Shown one piece after another: positions 3,255-34,604 of a stretch of DNA of 34,604 nt. This DNA comes from a virus. Location: positions 1 through 34,604 of the IMG/VR virus record IMGVR_UViG_3300023223_000074; one strand, written 5' to 3'. Below the pieces are notes generated by a model that searched no databases, had not been told where the DNA came from, and saw nothing but the letters and a program-made list of their open reading frames with translations. A program made the translations under genes and the position numbers. Position 1 is the stretch's first letter. The number at the start of each line of letters is the position of its first letter.

Positions 3255-3286
3255 TCAGCCCTTTCGAGTGTTAGTTGTTCTGTCAT
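3251..3286 (-). CDS. 11-codon micro-ORF coupled to the 66-aa gene
   Basis: Encodes MTEQLTLERAE. It has the clear Shine-Dalgarno GGAGG seven bases before its ATG and overlaps the next start as ATGA. It may be a translated leader that feeds ribosomes into the 66-aa gene. The ribosome site and coupling are visible; the function is inferred. Confidence 0.4.
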   Translation of the reverse strand: MTEQLTLERAE

Positions 3287-3532
3287 TGGTTTATCCTCCG
3301 TTTGTTTGGTTGAGGCGCGTTGGATTTATCGGAACCCTCAACCGGAATCGACATCGTTAGATGAATTGCCGCGCCTCATCTATGCCTACCGTGTTTCAGA
3401 TAGGCATACAAAAGGGCGTTTAAGCCTCATCCATTTCTCATGATAACCTCCTGTGTTGTCTTTTCCGTAGGGAGGGTTGCCCCTCATATCTATGCATACC
3501 AGAACGCCCGAAAGCCGTAAACGCGCGAATTG
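3287..3532 (-). promoter_or_regulatory. Structured intergenic leader between early and packaging genes
   Basis: No long gene. It contains a perfect 8-bp inverted repeat TATGCCTA (3381-3388)/TAGGCATA (3401-3408) and a perfect 9-bp inverted repeat TGAGGCGCG (3311-3319)/CGCGCCTCA (3370-3378). On the minus strand a strong AGGAGG leads to a four-codon frame (MRNG) followed by two overlapping or nearby 13-14-codon frames. None of the hairpins has a T tract, so they are not standard terminators. It sits where a lambdoid phage would place late-gene control; that role is inference. Confidence 0.45.
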
Positions 3533-3682
3533 TCACACCCCCCTCAGTATCTCAACCTTCCTCCGCGCAATCGCTTGTTGTTCTTCTACCGTGTAAACCA
3601 CGCTCATTGCCCGGCCTTGCTCTAGGTAGCCTTCAAGTTCCGCTGTGGTTGTTATGGTGGGTAGGGCTTCGAGGGGTCTCAT
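3533..3682 (-). CDS. Small hypothetical protein, last gene of the early leftward operon
   Basis: 49 residues (MRPLEALPTITTTAELEGYL ...), ATGA overlap with the DnaA-like gene. The Glu/Gln/Arg-rich second half (VEEQQAIARRKVEIL) should be helical. No family recognised. The coupling supports that it is translated. Confidence 0.6.
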   Translation of the reverse strand: MRPLEALPTITTTAELEGYLEQGRAMSVVYTVEEQQAIARRKVEILRGV

Positions 3683-3966
3683 ATCAATTCCCCCTGTGTT
3701 GGAATAAGCTGGTTGAAATACCCCATAAGCGCCGACAGGTGGCCCATCTTCTTGAGTTCCGCCGCCTTGTATCTGGTTACAGCGTACATGGCTGATGTGT
3801 GGTCCGCAAACCCTGCTTCTCGGGCAATTTCAGGGTAGGACATTCCAGCATCCCGCATTAGAACACAGGCATAACCGCGACAGTCGCAAGAGGCTTGGGA
3901 ACGGACGTGACTGGCTGGCCATGTTGTTATCCCGTAGCGGGTCATGGAGATTTCTTTAGCGTTCAT
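3679..3966 (-). CDS. DnaA domain IV-like DNA-binding protein
   Basis: 95 residues. Residues 30-67 (RGYACVLMRDAGMSYPEIAR, then EAGFADHTSAMYAVTRYK) follow the pattern of the bacterial DnaA C-terminal DNA-binding domain: helix, S-x-P-E-I-x-R, G-x-x-D-H-T-S, then A-V-x-R. D55-H56-T57 match the DnaA-box-contacting signature. The AAA+ ATPase and domains I-II are absent. Being in the operon with the DUF1376 initiator, it may bind DnaA-box-like sites at the phage origin or compete with host DnaA. The domain call is a pattern match; the role is inferred. Confidence 0.7.
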   Translation of the reverse strand: MNAKEISMTRYGITTWPASHVRSQASCDCRGYACVLMRDAGMSYPEIAREAGFADHTSAMYAVTRYKAAELKKMGHLSALMGYFNQLIPTQGELI

Positions 3967-4169
3967 TGCATCACCATTTCTTCATCGCCATTTTCCATAG
4001 CAAAAGATGACAAACTAGATACTAATTCTAAGTCTGAAATGTCTAGCGACCTTGATACGTGCAATAATAAGCCACAAGCGGCCATGTACGCTTCTTCTGG
4101 TTCCTCGCAAGAATCTACAATAATATTTGCCACTTTATGCACTAATGTGTTTATTTCTTCATCGGTCAT
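3963..4169 (-). CDS. Small acidic hypothetical protein
   Basis: 68 residues, strongly acidic, predicted mostly helical (INTLVHKVANIIVDSC, YMAACGLLLHVSRSL). It overlaps both neighbours as ATGA, so it is part of the replication operon. Acidic helical proteins of this size can be partner-binding or DNA-mimic proteins, but nothing specific can be shown. Confidence 0.6.
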   Translation of the reverse strand: MTDEEINTLVHKVANIIVDSCEEPEEAYMAACGLLLHVSRSLDISDLELVSSLSSFAMENGDEEMVMQ

Positions 4170-4636
4170 TCTCTTTCCTCCGGTTTATCTGTGAATTTAC
4201 GAACCTTAACATCACCGCTAAAGTTCACCTCATCCATTATCGCTTGGCGTTGTTCCGCTGTGGCTTGGATGCGTTCGGGTTCTGGTTTAACGTACTTGGG
4301 CATAGAAGCCGCAACACGCTGCCGGTTCACCACGATGATAGCTTTGATCTGCCCCTCGTGCGCTGCCTTGCGGTTTTTCGTGTCGTTCACGTATTCGGTT
4401 ATTGCCGCGTCAATTTCATCAAGCGAGTAGTTCAGCAAAGCCGCAGTCCAGTCAGCGCGTAGAAGCGTTCGCACCTCATCGCTGATCTGGTCCCAACCAA
4501 AGCGGTCATACTTCCGAGAGATAATCTCAAGTCGAAGACCCACCTTGGAGGCGTGCGATTGCAATTCTTGAGGCGTCATCCAGTTCGTGGACAAGTTTAA
4601 GGGTTGCTTGTTCGCTTCTGCTATTTCCGTTGCCAT
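4166..4636 (-). CDS. Possible replication accessory / helicase-loader-position protein
   Basis: 156 residues. It starts inside the DUF1376 gene (110-nt overlap in another frame) at an ATG preceded by a strong AAGGAGG, nine bases upstream, so the long overlap is probably real. Helical segments around 45-105 (WTAALLNYSLDEIDAAITEY) resemble the small helicase-recruiting or P-like proteins that follow initiators in phage replication modules. No Walker motif. Loader role is inference from position and helix pattern. Confidence 0.6.
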   Translation of the reverse strand: MATEIAEANKQPLNLSTNWMTPQELQSHASKVGLRLEIISRKYDRFGWDQISDEVRTLLRADWTAALLNYSLDEIDAAITEYVNDTKNRKAAHEGQIKAIIVVNRQRVAASMPKYVKPEPERIQATAEQRQAIMDEVNFSGDVKVRKFTDKPEERE

Positions 4637-5330
4637 TGTATTGGCCTCCTTTTGGTTGTTCTATTTCATCTTCCCAGCATTGCTGATTAAGCCAAGGCTC
4701 TGGGCCTTTGCCCCTTCCGTCCAAGACTTGGGCATCACCTGAATATCTAATCGCCCCGTTAACCATAGTTTGCTCAGAAATTCCTGCATTCATTTGGCGC
4801 GTGTAAACTCTCAACGCCTCTTTCTTGCCTTTCTTAGCCCCGCCCCTATGTGGATACTGATTCCAGAAATCCTCAAATGCTACAGGAGTAACTTTAGTTA
4901 CTCTCTTAACCGTTGTTATGGGTATGGGTTTGGGTTGCTGCGGAGCCGTTGGTAACGGTGGGTCAACAGCCGTTGAACTAGTATCTAACGATTTCAACGC
5001 TCTAGCCTTTGCAGATGCTTCGCCAGCAATGCGCTTTTGTTCGCGCTGTTTTGAAACGAAAGCGCGTTGACTCGTTAGCTTTTTCTGCGTCCACCCCTCA
5101 TCTGACAACCGCCAGAACGACATAATCGTGGGCTTCATCTTGTTCCATTTGCCCTTTGTCACGCCAACCATAAGGGCCAGCCGCGCGTCATTATCGGGCA
5201 GTGCGCATGCTTCTGTGCGCCAAGCGAACATCAGAAGCCGGAGGTAAACCCCGTGTTCCTCATTCGTCAAATGCGCTGTATCAGCTATGTAGGCATCTGT
5301 GAAAAGTGGTAATGCTGGAAATTCAGCCAT
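4527..5330 (-). CDS. DUF1376-type phage replication initiator
   Basis: 267 residues. Start chosen at the ATG sharing an A with the TAA of a 22-codon frame (TAATG); an upstream in-frame start is less likely. Residues 1-90 match the DUF1376 N-terminus (ALPLFTDAYIADTAHLTNEE, then HGVYLRLLMFAW, LPDND). Residues 115-145 are a Pro/Thr-rich linker. Residues 150-225 (AFEDFWNQYPHRGGAKKGKK, GPEPWLNQQCWEDE) match the C-terminal region seen in phage replication proteins. The family is linked to origin recognition and recruitment of the host replisome. The linker DNA holds a 16-bp palindrome that may be part of the origin. Confidence 0.88.
   Translation of the reverse strand: MAEFPALPLFTDAYIADTAHLTNEEHGVYLRLLMFAWRTEACALPDNDARLALMVGVTKGKWNKMKPTIMSFWRLSDEGWTQKKLTSQRAFVSKQREQKRIAGEASAKARALKSLDTSSTAVDPPLPTAPQQPKPIPITTVKRVTKVTPVAFEDFWNQYPHRGGAKKGKKEALRVYTRQMNAGISEQTMVNGAIRYSGDAQVLDGRGKGPEPWLNQQCWEDEIEQPKGGQYNGNGNSRSEQATLKLVHELDDASRIAIARLQGGSST
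4887..4902. repeat. 16-bp palindrome inside the initiator gene, candidate origin element
   Basis: AGTAACTTTAGTTACT: two perfect 7-bp arms separated by TT. It lies in the part coding for the linker of the DUF1376 protein, as lambda-type origins lie within the initiator gene. No set of direct iterons was obvious by eye, so the origin call is only a suggestion. Confidence 0.35.
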
Positions 5331-5398
5331 TAAGTTTGCCCTTTGTTTGGGCAGATAACTTGCAACACATTCCAAGGCGTGTTATCAAGTACCTGCAT
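5330..5398 (-). CDS. 22-codon micro-ORF coupled to the replication initiator
   Basis: Encodes MQVLDNTPWNVLQVICPNKG plus QT and ends in TAATG shared with the initiator ATG. A GAGG ribosome site is 9-10 bases upstream and a sigma70-like promoter lies just before. It could be a leader that sets initiator translation. Seen: frame, ribosome site, overlap. Inferred: translation and role. Confidence 0.5.
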   Translation of the reverse strand: MQVLDNTPWNVLQVICPNKGQT

Positions 5399-5484: not shown

Positions 5485-5754
5485 TCAGTGAAGGTCCTCG
5501 ATTGCTGCGTTCAAGCTATCTATCATTTGTCCGCGTAATTGATTTTTCCACATAGCCCGGTAAGAAGCCTTTTCCTTAGCCACGCTTACCGCTGGTTTTA
5601 TCGTTTGGTTTTCGTCGCAAGCATTCCTAAGATGAATCCACATAGCATCACAAGCCTCTCCGTGTATTTCGTTCGCCCGTTCTGGGTTGGTTTTCCACAT
5701 AGGGGATTCTTCCGCAGCAAAACACGCTTTGGCGAGACTTATGGTTATGTCCAT
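5485..5754 (-). CDS. Hypothetical protein
   Basis: 89 residues. Three consecutive ATGs follow an AGGAG; the third is seven bases from it and is the best-spaced start, the first only one base away. The sequence (MDITISLAKACFAAEESPMW ...) is helical with two Cys and many Trp/Met. A seven-codon frame overlapping the upstream stop (ATGA) ends in TGATG at this start, another coupling link. Function unknown. Confidence 0.65.
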   Translation of the reverse strand: MDITISLAKACFAAEESPMWKTNPERANEIHGEACDAMWIHLRNACDENQTIKPAVSVAKEKASYRAMWKNQLRGQMIDSLNAAIEDLH

Positions 5755-5776
5755 CATCATTCTCCTGTCTGTGTGT

Positions 5777-6013
5777 TCATGTTGTGGTGGCTTTGAGGGT
5801 TTCGGGTTCAATAACTATATCGCCCCTCTTGACCTTGCCGTTCATTTCATCAGCAATGCCCTGCGCTTGTGACTTGTCGTAATATTTAGACTCACCGCCG
5901 CCTTTACCTGCAAGAGTAGGTCCATACGCACCGCCGATACCAACAACCCAATACTCGCGCCCATTCGGCCATTCACGCCTACGGGTTGTCCATTTCTTGC
6001 TAGGCTTTCCCAT
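5777..6013 (-). CDS. Small hypothetical protein
   Basis: 78 residues, start at the ATG one base after the upstream TAA. Residues 13-60 (WPNGREYWVVGIGGAYGPTL; KYYDKSQAQGIADEMN) look like a small alpha/beta unit with a basic N-terminus (KPSKKWTTRRR). Family not recognised. Confidence 0.65.
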   Translation of the reverse strand: MGKPSKKWTTRRREWPNGREYWVVGIGGAYGPTLAGKGGGESKYYDKSQAQGIADEMNGKVKRGDIVIEPETLKATTT

Positions 6014-6872: not shown

Positions 6873-7268
6873 TTAACTAATCTCGCCCACGATGGGGACT
6901 TCCACCACGCGCATATTCTCAAGAAGCGGTTTGATTCCCACGACAACCTTACCGCCTACTACTGGCGCGGCCTTTGAAATCGTGATAGTCCACTCGCTAT
7001 CATCAACACCGATCGCGTCAACAATCCCATCGATTCCGCTTTTGAAACTCGATAGCATGTTGTCCAGATCCCGCCGCCGCTTATCCGGGGGGTGGAACGT
7101 GATAATCGCGTGAACCTTCCCCTGCATCTTCTTGGCCCCCTGGATACGGCATTCTGTGGCGCATTCGTGCCGGTACGCCTTCCTTATGGGGGATGACTTG
7201 GCCCAATGGCCCCGAGCGTTAGGGGATAGCCTTGGGCTTGGGTAGGGTATTTCGAATGTTACCGTCAT
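6873..7268 (-). CDS. rusA: RusA-family Holliday junction resolvase
   Basis: 131 residues, usual length for RusA. N-terminus TFEIPYPSPRLSPNARGHW is typical, and RRRDLDNMLSSFKSGIDGI (residues 64-82) with GVDDSEW (87-93) supplies the acidic metal-binding residues D67, D69 and D89/D90. RusA dimers cut four-way junctions and branched recombination or replication intermediates, making DNA fit for packaging. Overlaps the upstream gene as ATGA. High confidence. Confidence 0.93.
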   Translation of the reverse strand: MTVTFEIPYPSPRLSPNARGHWAKSSPIRKAYRHECATECRIQGAKKMQGKVHAIITFHPPDKRRRDLDNMLSSFKSGIDGIVDAIGVDDSEWTITISKAAPVVGGKVVVGIKPLLENMRVVEVPIVGEIS

Positions 7269-16073: not shown

Positions 16074-16625
16074 ATGGATAAAGAAGATATGATTTCAGTA
16101 GAAACACTTCACGAGATTCTTTTGTGCGACCCTGTAAGCGGAAATCTAACTTGGAAGACTCGCAGACCTGAAATGTTTTATGGTAAACATAAGGAAGGAA
16201 GCTGTAAGGCTTGGAACGCTCGTTATGCTGGTCATCCCGCCCTCGCCTATGTTTCTAAGGGGTATAAAACAGGCCCGATATTTAACATTCAATTCCGCGC
16301 CTCTCGCGTAGTGTTCGCTATGACCACAGGACACTGGCCCAAAGACCAAGTGGACCATGAAGACCACGATAAACTGAATAATGCGCCTGACAACCTTCGT
16401 GACACCGACCAGTTCGGGAACATGAAGAACGGCCCCATGATGAAGAACAATAAAAGTGGCCACGTGGGTGTGAGTTGGTACAAGGCCACAAACAGATGGA
16501 GGGCGGCGATAATGATTAAAGGCAAGCAAATCACCCTTGGGTACTACAAGGATATTAACGACGCGGTTGCCGCGCGTGAAAAGTCTAGTATCGAAGCTGG
16601 ATACCATGAAAATCACGGCAGTTAG
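16074..16625 (+). CDS. HNH-AP2 homing-type endonuclease, copy 1
   Basis: 183 residues, AGGAGG eight bases before the start. HNH nuclease: DQVDHEDHDKLNNAPDNLRD (91-110; H95, H98, N107). AP2-type DNA-binding region 128-170: SGHVGVSWYKATNRWRAAI, LGYYKDINDAVAAREK. Ends GYHENHGS like the copy at 29981. Free-standing HNH-AP2 genes are mobile: they nick related DNA lacking the gene and spread by repair. Paralogous to two others here. Confidence 0.92.
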   Translation: MDKEDMISVETLHEILLCDPVSGNLTWKTRRPEMFYGKHKEGSCKAWNARYAGHPALAYVSKGYKTGPIFNIQFRASRVVFAMTTGHWPKDQVDHEDHDKLNNAPDNLRDTDQFGNMKNGPMMKNNKSGHVGVSWYKATNRWRAAIMIKGKQITLGYYKDINDAVAAREKSSIEAGYHENHGS

Positions 16626-17028: not shown

Positions 17029-17150
17029 ATTTCTTCTTCGCGCTGGTACTTGTGGCAGCCCCACAGTTCCCGGACTGGCCGTATCAGTTCGCACGCGTTC
17101 ACTATGAAACCCTTGCGGAATGTGAAGCCGTGAATGAGCGTTGTTTTTAG
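17022..17150 (+). CDS. Possible small exported protein
   Basis: 42 residues from a GTG overlapping the previous stop. VVDFFFALVLVAAPQF is a short hydrophobic N-terminus like a signal peptide or anchor; two Cys near the end (ECEAVNERCF) could form a disulfide. Small exported cysteine proteins in phage early regions can be exclusion or lysis-control proteins, but this is speculative. No ribosome site other than the coupling. Confidence 0.4.
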   Translation: MVDFFFALVLVAAPQFPDWPYQFARVHYETLAECEAVNERCF

Positions 17151-17221
17151 GGGTGGGTTCAGATGCCAGTTAGACGGGCTGTTGTTGATTCCCCGCGTAA
17201 GATGTAATATAAAAGGCGAAA

Positions 17222-17249
17222 GCCGCAGATGTTTTGAGCATCAAGCGGC
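17222..17249 (+). promoter_or_regulatory. Hairpin upstream of HNH copy 2
   Basis: GCCGC (17222-17226)/GCGGC (17245-17249) with inner GATG/CATC and a 7-base loop. No T tract, so not a standard terminator. It lies 31 bases before the HNH start, in an otherwise empty 130-base gap, and may control translation of the endonuclease. The 11-mer TCAACCGGAAT at 17259-17269 also occurs at 3338-3348. Confidence 0.4.
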
Positions 17250-17280
17250 CTCCTTACATCAACCGGAATTGGACTCCGAT

Positions 17281-17853
17281 ATGACTGCTAAACCATTACC
17301 AACAATTGAAATGCTGCACAAGTTATTCGTATGCGACACCGAGGCAGGAACTATTTTGTGGCGTGAAAGAACTCCTGATATGTTTACCAAAGGTAAGAAC
17401 ACCACAGAGCACACTTGCAACAAATGGAACAGCCAGCACGCGGGTAAAGATGCGCTAATTACCGTCGGGAAAGATGGCTATAAGCGCGGCGGAATACTTG
17501 GAAAGAATTACTACGCACACCGCGTAATCTATAAAATTCATCATGGTGTAGAACCTATTGAGATTGACCACACAAACGGAAAACGCGACGACAACAGAAT
17601 AATAAATTTGAGCAGCGGAACCCACCAAGACAACTGCCGAAATATGTCCATATCAAGAATAAACAAAAGCGGTGTTGTCGGTGTCAGTTGGATCAAAAAG
17701 AAAAATGTATGGTCTGCGAGTATCGGAGTCGATGGCAAGACTGTTCATATAGGGTACTTTGACGATAAAGACTCGGCACAGTCGGCACGTAAATTCGCCG
17801 AACAGAATTATGGATTTAAAAAAACCCACGGCAAACATATCGAACTTTATTAG
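17281..17853 (+). CDS. HNH-AP2 homing-type endonuclease, copy 2
   Basis: 190 residues; start chosen at the ATG where similarity to the other copies begins (TIEMLHKLFVCDTEAGTILW). HNH: IEIDHTNGKRDDNRIINL (93-110; D96, H97, N99). AP2: SGVVGVSWIKKKNVWSASI, HIGYFDDKDSAQSARKF. More diverged than the other two copies. The ribosome site is weak. Last gene of the plus early operon; ends three bases from the stop of the convergent Rz1-like gene. Confidence 0.9.
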   Translation: MTAKPLPTIEMLHKLFVCDTEAGTILWRERTPDMFTKGKNTTEHTCNKWNSQHAGKDALITVGKDGYKRGGILGKNYYAHRVIYKIHHGVEPIEIDHTNGKRDDNRIINLSSGTHQDNCRNMSISRINKSGVVGVSWIKKKNVWSASIGVDGKTVHIGYFDDKDSAQSARKFAEQNYGFKKTHGKHIELY

Positions 17854-21557: not shown

Positions 21558-23456
21558 ATGAATGTTCGAGAGTCACGTCCCCCCGGAACAGATGTTGCCG
21601 TCAGGAACCCCGGAGAAATAATCTATATCAAAGGCTCCGAATCTGTCGATGGTAGCATTCGCCTTCAAGTCATTGTGATGAATGGTGGTTTCATTACCGA
21701 AATACAAACCCGCACAGAAGGGATATGGCAACCAACGTCCTTCAAGACCGGCGCAGAATCTGTTCTGGTTGGAACGCTGGTTAGACTTAGCGCAGCGGGA
21801 AACCATCTAATTACCAACGACGGCTTTGGTCACGTTCATTTCAACGCGCGTTCCGAACTTGAAGATGGCGTGTCCACGTCATTGGCAACAATGATTAATG
21901 CAACAAGTTTTACCGAACGGGCTGTGTTCAGGTCAGACGAATCAAGCACCTTCACAGGAACACTTATCGAAAACTTGGTTATTGGAACAGCACTTCATCT
22001 GATAACAGGAAAGTTCTACTTCAAAACAGGGGCTACTGCCGCAAGCGAAGCCGTACGAGTTGAAGCATGGAAAGGGATAGACGATACTGGCTCGAAGATA
22101 TTTGACCAACTCTACCCGCCGTCCGAGTTCCCCGCCAATACCGAGATAGGCTTAACGCTGGAAGGGTTTCTGGAGTTCTTTGTGGGTGACGACACGTTTA
22201 CAAGAATAACCAGCGATGCGGATTTTTCCCTTAAAACAAACGCGGCGCTTGATGCTTGGTGGCTAGCCGTAGACTTCTCGGCAGTCAGCGACGACGACCT
22301 ATTGCAAACAACCGAATGGGTAGATGGGAACACCTTCACCGAAGGCGATTGGTCAACGCAGGATCGCAAGGTTTACGTGTGCAACGTCACAGGTATTCAA
22401 ACCGGCACGTTCAACGATAATCTGGACAAGTGGGACGTTTTAACCCCTAACCCACCCCTGCCAGAAATCACATCTTCTTTAACTCTGGAAATAGAACAGA
22501 CGGAATCCCTAGATTATGAACTAACAGCGGATTTTGGTGTTGGCTTTGAGTGGGATGATTTGCCTTTAGGTGTTTTTGCACGAAACGGAAACGTAAGGAA
22601 GATTTTTGGAGGAGGGCTGCTACTTCCTGCCGTTTACGAATTGATCATGCGATCACGCAACATTACCGGAACCACAGAAGAAACCCTAACGCTGACAGTT
22701 ACAGCCCTACCGTGGGAAGACGACTTTGCAGTTCAGTTCAATGTTCTTGACTACATGGACGCCTCGGCAGACACATCAAACCCCCTCTACAGGGCCGCAA
22801 ACGGCACAGGCGCGAACGACGCATGGACAATAGCCTTCTGGTTTGAAGGTGGTTCAAGCAGCAACGGCGAGCAGACAGTTATATCCTTTGGCGGGTCAAG
22901 CCAGAGCGACGAGGGCCGAGTCCAAGTCTATTGGGATGGAAATAATGATCGCATGTTCCTGCAATACGGCACCAACAACGATTACCTTAGAATGAACACA
23001 GACGACAGCACCGTTCCTGACGGGACATACACGCATATTATAATGGCCTATGACGGAGGCGCGACTGACAACGAACAATACTCCAGCTTCAAAGTGTTTA
23101 TTGATGGGGTCGGCGTTAGCTGGAAAGACGAGAACGAAAGCAACAAGGGGTTTGGTGGCGAGATTGTAGATGACTTCTTTAGAATGGGTCGGAACCTATC
23201 CGCTGGAAACTACCTGCAAGGAAGCACGCTACTTGATGAAGTGGCCCTATGGGATAGTGACCAATCGGCAAACGTAGCCGCTATTTATAATGGCGGTGTA
23301 ACACACGACTTGCGGATTATGGCAAACCCACCAGAGCATTATTGGGCTATGGGAGATTTAACCGATGTATTCCCGATTATCTTTGACCATATAGGGTCTT
23401 TGAATATGACCATGACCAACATGGTTGCAGGGGATATTGTGGCAGATACGCCTTAA
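21558..23456 (+). CDS. Large LamG-domain putative receptor-binding protein, on the opposite strand to the tail genes
   Basis: 632 residues. No signal peptide. Residues 1-330 are beta-rich; about 310-385 looks like an Ig or cadherin-like unit (LTLEIEQTESLDYELTADFG). The C-terminal 390-610 is a LamG-type jellyroll: DAWTIAFWFEGGS, VPDGTYTHIIMAYDGG, KVFIDGVG, LLDEVALWDSDQSANVAAIY, NGGVTHDL, EHYWAMGD. Likely binds host surface glycans. It lies between minus-strand tail genes and its stop overlaps the convergent gene's stop in TTAA. Probably a later insertion with its own promoter. Confidence 0.83.
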   Translation: MNVRESRPPGTDVAVRNPGEIIYIKGSESVDGSIRLQVIVMNGGFITEIQTRTEGIWQPTSFKTGAESVLVGTLVRLSAAGNHLITNDGFGHVHFNARSELEDGVSTSLATMINATSFTERAVFRSDESSTFTGTLIENLVIGTALHLITGKFYFKTGATAASEAVRVEAWKGIDDTGSKIFDQLYPPSEFPANTEIGLTLEGFLEFFVGDDTFTRITSDADFSLKTNAALDAWWLAVDFSAVSDDDLLQTTEWVDGNTFTEGDWSTQDRKVYVCNVTGIQTGTFNDNLDKWDVLTPNPPLPEITSSLTLEIEQTESLDYELTADFGVGFEWDDLPLGVFARNGNVRKIFGGGLLLPAVYELIMRSRNITGTTEETLTLTVTALPWEDDFAVQFNVLDYMDASADTSNPLYRAANGTGANDAWTIAFWFEGGSSSNGEQTVISFGGSSQSDEGRVQVYWDGNNDRMFLQYGTNNDYLRMNTDDSTVPDGTYTHIIMAYDGGATDNEQYSSFKVFIDGVGVSWKDENESNKGFGGEIVDDFFRMGRNLSAGNYLQGSTLLDEVALWDSDQSANVAAIYNGGVTHDLRIMANPPEHYWAMGDLTDVFPIIFDHIGSLNMTMTNMVAGDIVADTP

Positions 23457-33864: not shown

Positions 33865-34604
33865 TCAACCAAATCCCTGCCCAGCGAAGAACGGATTAAG
33901 CGCAGCGTATGAGGGACGCAAATCGAAGCGAACCTGTTGGCTGTTCTTGGTAAAGTCCGAACCTTTGGATACCCGCAATTGCAAGCCATCCTCAGTTGTA
34001 CCCACCGTATCCGTGCTGTGAAGCTTCTTGATCGGTACAGAGCCAATCGAGAATGCTTGCTTGTGCCAGAATAGGTTAGGCTGGAACAGTGTCGCGTCAG
34101 CGTTCAGAATGGTGATCACGTCTGATACGGCAATCGCTTGCTCAGTGGTGTTGTAAGCACCAGTTGCCTCGAAGATACCCGGACCAGATACAACCAACGT
34201 ACCTGCACCAGTTGTGAACGAAGCATCAGCCGTAACAACCGCTGTGAACAGACGGTTCGCGCCCGTATCATCAATGACCGGCTTGCGTGTTGACATGTTC
34301 AAACGATTAACGCCTGTGATCTGAACCACAGTACCCGCAGGGATTGTCCCTGTGAACGTGCCAATACCAGTTACACCGATAGCCTGTGTCATGGTGTCTT
34401 TCGCTGTCACGTAGGTAACATCAACAGAACCAACAACACCGGCAGTATCGCCTGTGGTCGGGGTTGTGAAGCTAGCCAATGTGGTAGCAGTCATGACGCT
34501 TGAGAAACCAGCGAAATTCTCTGTGATACTCGCACGACGGTGCGCTTCAGAGATCAACGAACCGGCAGAACCACCTGCACCCAACGAACGCTGGTCACTT
34601 GCCA
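33865..34604 (-). CDS. P22-like major coat protein, C-terminal part (5' end beyond window)
   Basis: About 246 residues; the frame is open to the window edge, so the TTG at 34584 is internal (ASDQRSLGAGGSAG). Residues toward the end (FSIGSVPIKKLHSTDTVGTT; LRVSKGSDFTKNSQQVRFD; LRPSYAALNPFFAGQGFG) match the C-terminus of P22-type coat proteins; the telokin-like I-domain region (GVTGIGTFTGTIPAGTVVQI) precedes. P22 coat is 430 residues, so somewhat over half is present. Confidence 0.87.
   Translation of the reverse strand, partial: ASDQRSLGAGGSAGSLISEAHRRASITENFAGFSSVMTATTLASFTTPTTGDTAGVVGSVDVTYVTAKDTMTQAIGVTGIGTFTGTIPAGTVVQITGVNRLNMSTRKPVIDDTGANRLFTAVVTADASFTTGAGTLVVSGPGIFEATGAYNTTEQAIAVSDVITILNADATLFQPNLFWHKQAFSIGSVPIKKLHSTDTVGTTEDGLQLRVSKGSDFTKNSQQVRFDLRPSYAALNPFFAGQGFG

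Follow-up and report, generated by a model that had tools for sequence, protein, structure and literature searches.

A small phage protein with the DNA-binding domain of the bacterial initiator DnaA and its possible role in phage replication

What use would a phage have for the DNA-binding end of a bacterial replication initiator when the rest of the initiator is missing? The question is raised by a 95-aa open reading frame (ORF) in an IMG/VR virus record of 34.6 kb, a P22-like phage by its head closure, DNA-ejection and major head protein matches; the whole of this stretch (34,604 nucleotides) is referred to here as the window. A first-pass annotation had described the product as a minimal DnaA domain IV, keeping the DnaA-box-binding signature without the ATPase, and had suggested that it might mark DnaA boxes at the phage origin, recruit or block host DnaA, or shift host replication. 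The description has stood: the ORF is real, and domain IV is indicated alike by the sequence profile, by the predicted fold, by the residues that contact DNA and by the neighbouring genes. The suggested roles fared unevenly, as the link to replication gains support from gene order and the marking of DnaA boxes does not.

The length of the protein is about that of one DnaA domain IV, and its gene (hereafter the DnaA_C gene) is joined to its neighbours by ATGA overlaps on both sides, at 3963-3966 with the upstream gene and at 3679-3682 with the downstream 49-aa ORF, a pattern typical of a translated operon. Its best Pfam family is PF08299, Bac_DnaA_C (E = 2.5e-5, 24.6 bits, residues 19-64), as the first-pass annotation had anticipated, albeit below the gathering cut-off of 31.5 bits, which many viral relatives pass; weak secondary matches to HTH and sigma-region-4 families were also obtained. 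The score under the curated cut-off would favour convergence, namely a generic helix-turn-helix (HTH) protein unrelated to DnaA. Against a profile of 66 viral DnaA_C domains, from which the window protein was left out, the protein nevertheless scores 37.7 bits, while the best of 20,000 shuffles reaches 10.6, and it is the sole match to this profile among 464 window ORFs. The match to DnaA_C is far above chance. When compared with the PDB, the viral family profile retrieves DnaA chains only, with 1j1v at 1.8e-24. Neither AAA+ nor any other DnaA domain was detected in the ORF, and with TIGR00362, which describes the full DnaA initiator, it reaches 13.4 bits where the cut-off demands 343.9.

Residue equivalences to Escherichia coli DnaA (1j1v) were derived from chained alignments, by which R22, R30, P45, D55, H56 and T57 of the window protein correspond to R399, R407, P423, D433, H434 and T435, respectively. 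Among 55 aligned sequences, R30, D55 and T57 never vary, and R22 and H56 are conserved in at least 90%. The spacing of the contact residues is preserved except for one single-residue deletion between helix 2 and the HTH region, which argues against convergence. Base-contact assignments of E. coli DnaA beyond R399 and the helix from 434 follow the 1J1V structure paper. In the E. coli protein, R399 reads the minor groove and the major groove takes up the helix that starts at 434; the R399A and T435M mutants are defective in DnaA-box binding (PMC5742627); both positions are kept in the window protein. E. coli domain IV (94 aa in 1j1v) is thus alike in fold, length and DNA-contact residues, but it is part of a four-domain AAA+ initiator, and the window protein departs from it in the recognition region, where A54, A59 and Y61 stand for R432, V437 and H439. 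Tyrosine at the H439 position is also found in Mycobacterium tuberculosis DnaA.

An AlphaFold2 model computed from the 55-sequence alignment (pLDDT 85.3, superseding an earlier prediction on 5 sequences with pLDDT 66) contains helices at residues 3-11, 24-39, 44-51 and 56-87. The predicted HTH is formed by residues 44-51 and 56 onward, and R22 provides the basic loop, so that the model shows the helices, HTH and basic loop of domain IV that the first-pass annotation had expected of a structure prediction. The seven best PDB matches of the model are all DnaA (1j1v at TM 0.69), with Foldseek E-values of just ~0.07-0.2 for this small, helical domain; the named matches in BFVD are mostly viral proteins called 'Chromosomal replication initiator, DnaA C-terminal'. 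As the model was guided by relatives, the fold is supported rather than independently proven. These structural matches, together with an operon place equal to that of a clear DnaA_C protein in another phage (see below), make convergence of an unrelated HTH very improbable.

Phages of Rhizobium, Pelagibacter, Synechococcus and Microcystis already have annotated stand-alone DnaA_C proteins. The class, widely annotated as it is, is not new, and no paper testing the function of its members was found in the open-access literature. A profile scan gathered relatives from at least 352 IMG/VR contigs, 80 of which were kept; this collection depends partly on the window protein, since it was one of five rows in the query alignment. 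A peptide-pattern search of 2.9 million viral contigs and ~85,000 genomes found no close relatives, and a single-protein search of GenBank phages gave nothing beyond one short match, not significant, to HTH proteins that Microbacterium phages encode near a terminase gene. Judged by sequence, the window protein is a divergent, orphan member of a known, functionally unstudied class. Among the annotated members, HTVC010P-group Pelagibacter phages carry proteins labelled 'DNA replication initiation (DnaA)', which likewise are small, hold only the DnaA DNA-binding domain and lie near recombination or replication genes, and gp42 of Pelagibacter phage Greip is annotated 'Bac_DnaA_C domain-containing protein'. 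DnaA is listed among the shared proteins of HTVC010P-type phages (PMC6811365). The Pelagibacter phage proteins differ from the window protein in their length (173-186 aa) and in their neighbours, a nuclease and a single-strand annealing protein. One PHROG family, phrog_645, is labelled 'Rnase E', probably a misnomer; its positions 17-68 match the window DnaA_C domain.

The operon context of the gene is summarized in Table 1. The leftward operon extends from an HTH gene (7683) by way of RusA, DUF1376/primosomal protein, the 156-aa and the 68-aa ORFs to the DnaA_C gene, and continues with the 49-aa ORF, small genes, a ParB-methyltransferase and a terminase small-subunit-like gene. The DUF1376 protein is likely a phage replication initiation or helicase-loading protein, and the 156-aa protein is also related to proteins of two IMG/VR contigs at 36-37% identity. 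Downstream of the DnaA_C gene, the stretch 3255-3532 holds no obvious gene and can form a stem (TATGCCTA/TAGGCATA, fold z-score -2.4); it is possibly a regulatory RNA or binding site. Further along, 716-2158 encodes the ParB-like domain in fusion with a DNA methyltransferase; six other viral contigs have proteins 69-85% identical to it.

Table 1. Coordinates of the DnaA_C gene and its operon neighbours in the window.
Feature	Position	Strand	Basis or remark
Stand-alone DnaA domain IV-type (Bac_DnaA_C) protein, 95 aa	3679..3966	-	ATG start; Pfam, viral profile, alignment, model
49-aa ORF, downstream, ATGA overlap with DnaA_C gene	3533..3682	-	
68-aa ORF, upstream, ATGA overlap with DnaA_C gene	3963..4169	-	counterpart of DB virus 2 gp51 (67 aa) by position
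156-aa protein, function unassigned, adjoins DUF1376 conservedly	4166..4636	-	DB virus 2 gp50, E 2.8e-13
DUF1376 / 'primosomal protein'	4527..5375	-	true start probably 5330
RusA-like Holliday junction resolvase, same leftward operon	6873..7268	-	

The same order of DUF1376, 156-aa protein or gp50, small ORF and DnaA_C is found in Octadecabacter Antarctic DB virus 2, an isolated phage, where gp49 is DUF1376-like (E = 2.6e-24) and is followed by gp50, gp51 and gp52; no sequence similarity is detectable between gp51 and the 68-aa ORF. The last of these, gp52 (URC15554, 'replication initiator protein', 106 aa), is likewise a stand-alone DnaA_C protein at the same operon place, but unlike the window protein it reaches 61 bits with PF08299 and has retained the RRDHTTV motif, and the two are too diverged for a direct pairwise match. 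In Rhizobium phage RHph_TM3_3_3, the gene next after DUF1376 encodes a 'chromosomal replication initiator DnaA-like protein', EVB37_086 (152 aa), again a DnaA_C protein without AAA+, which differs from the window protein in a longer N-terminal extension, the canonical GGRDHTTCLYAVRKIE and a score of 60 bits. Another locus (L045) has the order RusA, DnaA_C, DUF1376 and the 156-aa homologue. Across unrelated phages, the position of DnaA_C goes with that of replication genes (DUF1376, RusA, SSB). DnaA_C is present in five of seven viral contigs found via DUF1376, compared with none of ten found via the ParB-methyltransferase; conversely, 17 of 80 DnaA_C loci and none of 12 control loci contain DUF1376, which is lacking within the available stretch of the other 63. 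The association of DnaA_C with DUF1376 is real and not universal, the loci counted being not fully independent. No related phages were retrieved via the DNA-transfer protein, and the head closure protein led to two contigs, both incomplete and without DnaA_C and DUF1376.

A lone domain IV in such an operon context is consistent with a DNA-binding accessory factor in phage replication, and we propose with moderate confidence that this is what the DnaA_C protein is. Expressed from the phage replication operon beside the DUF1376 primosomal protein, the gene product is a free-standing domain IV with four helices, an HTH and an arginine loop, devoid of the AAA+ motor and the helicase-interaction domains. 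A lone domain of this kind can bind DNA but lacks the means to oligomerise, to hydrolyse ATP or to make the contact with DnaB that DnaA makes. We infer that its most likely targets are specific sites, probably in the DNA of the phage, and that the bound protein would help to place or regulate the initiation proteins that the phage itself supplies. Replication would probably be carried out by the helicase and polymerase of the host, since a scan of the ORFs of the available, incomplete genome, which covered part of the small ones, detected neither gene.

It is possible, though rather unlikely, that the protein is instead a phage transcription regulator, either an autoregulator or an early-to-late switch, with a borrowed DnaA DNA-binding domain. 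Its gene lies near the end of the leftward early operon, ahead of the terminase small-subunit and packaging genes, and in other phages small HTH regulators such as Q, RinA and ArpU often precede packaging genes. The secondary HTH and sigma-region-4 matches point in the same direction, and a general regulatory role is also suited by Azospirillum phage Cd, in which gp18 (L027, 5996-6331), a LuxR-like HTH protein, occupies the place of DnaA_C three genes past DUF1376. On the other hand, the best match is to DnaA_C with its contact residues kept and not to sigma region 4, the gene keeps company with replication genes in unrelated phages, and this analysis identified no promoter or operator.

The accessory reading leads to the sites that the protein might bind, for which the extent of the contig matters. 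At its ends (1-529 and 33865-34604), the coat gene is truncated at the right, and the terminase large subunit, portal and scaffold are absent. By the gene order of a relative (G019, locus L131), namely terminase small, terminase large, portal, scaffold and coat (names inferred from sequence and order), ~4-5 kb are absent from the window contig. Elsewhere in the window, two HNH endonuclease genes, 16074-16625 and 17134-17853, both belong to phrog_99 and are probable duplicates, and a 632-aa ORF on the plus strand (21558-23456), beside virion genes on the minus strand and with no PHROG match at E 1e-3, is a candidate tailspike or receptor-binding protein.

DnaA boxes are not in excess in the window. 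Sites matching TTATNCACA with at most one mismatch number 26 in the incomplete contig against 29.3 expected, none of them perfect, and TTWTNCACA occurs twice against 3.2 expected; the idea that the protein marks DnaA boxes at the origin of the phage is thus unsupported, with the caveat that the missing ~4-5 kb could hold boxes. Two TTTTCCACATAG copies (5544 and 5691) were considered as paired boxes, a pair of such sites on the same strand and no more than 160 bp apart being found in 2% of shuffles, but both are inside the gene at 5485-5811, where they encode its repeated Met-Trp-Lys motif, and they were not counted as evidence. Convincing tandem-repeat iterons were not found. In the loci of 69 relatives, DnaA boxes number 16 near the gene against 21 far from it (nominal P 2e-4), which is weak as independent support because a single clade of near-identical contigs supplies most of them. 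One clade of relatives (L101, L103, L111 and L120) has two to three perfect copies of TTTTCCACA, the DnaA-box consensus, where the DnaA_C gene starts or shortly before it; in L101 they lie at 3590, 3612 and 3762, and in L101, L103 and L111 two of them form an inverted pair 22 bp apart. This cluster is possibly an operator or an origin for the DnaA_C protein of the four loci, and sites so placed would also be expected of an autoregulated promoter.

As the available phage sequence is not enriched in DnaA boxes, the sites could lie on the host chromosome. The protein might then serve host takeover by occupying DnaA boxes at the host oriC, blocking host initiation and freeing host replisomes for phage DNA, in which case it would bind TTATCCACA. 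The kept counterparts of R399 and T435 favour such an activity, and phage inhibitors of DnaA are known, namely lambda P and YfdR of CPS-53 (PMC4776307). These inhibitors, however, bind the DnaA protein and not its boxes, and it is phage replication operons, not groups of host-takeover genes, that contain genes of the DnaA_C class. Moreover, a lone domain that lacks the cooperativity of AAA+ would be a weak competitor, and boxes could still reside in the missing part of the phage genome. We therefore consider a role in host takeover quite unlikely.

The window protein may, by analogy, read a site other than the DnaA box. A C-terminal Bac_DnaA_C domain is reused outside DnaA in the TnpA-REP subclass 2.1 transposases, for which a differing and possibly new DNA specificity has been suggested, although it is fused there to a Y1 transposase and is neither of phage origin nor stand-alone (PMC6006769). 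In a broader and more speculative version of the accessory role, which we hold to be unlikely, stand-alone domain IV proteins would be widespread phage initiators or modulators that hand origins to DUF1376-type primosomal proteins and replace the AAA+ motor, the window protein being a member with altered recognition residues and a site of its own instead of the DnaA box. The DNA-binding end of the bacterial initiator, and nothing else of it, is encoded by hundreds of phages, time and again next to DUF1376 replication genes. Should these proteins work at the origins of phages, or in opposition to host DnaA, phage replication would through them be tied to the control of initiation in the host.
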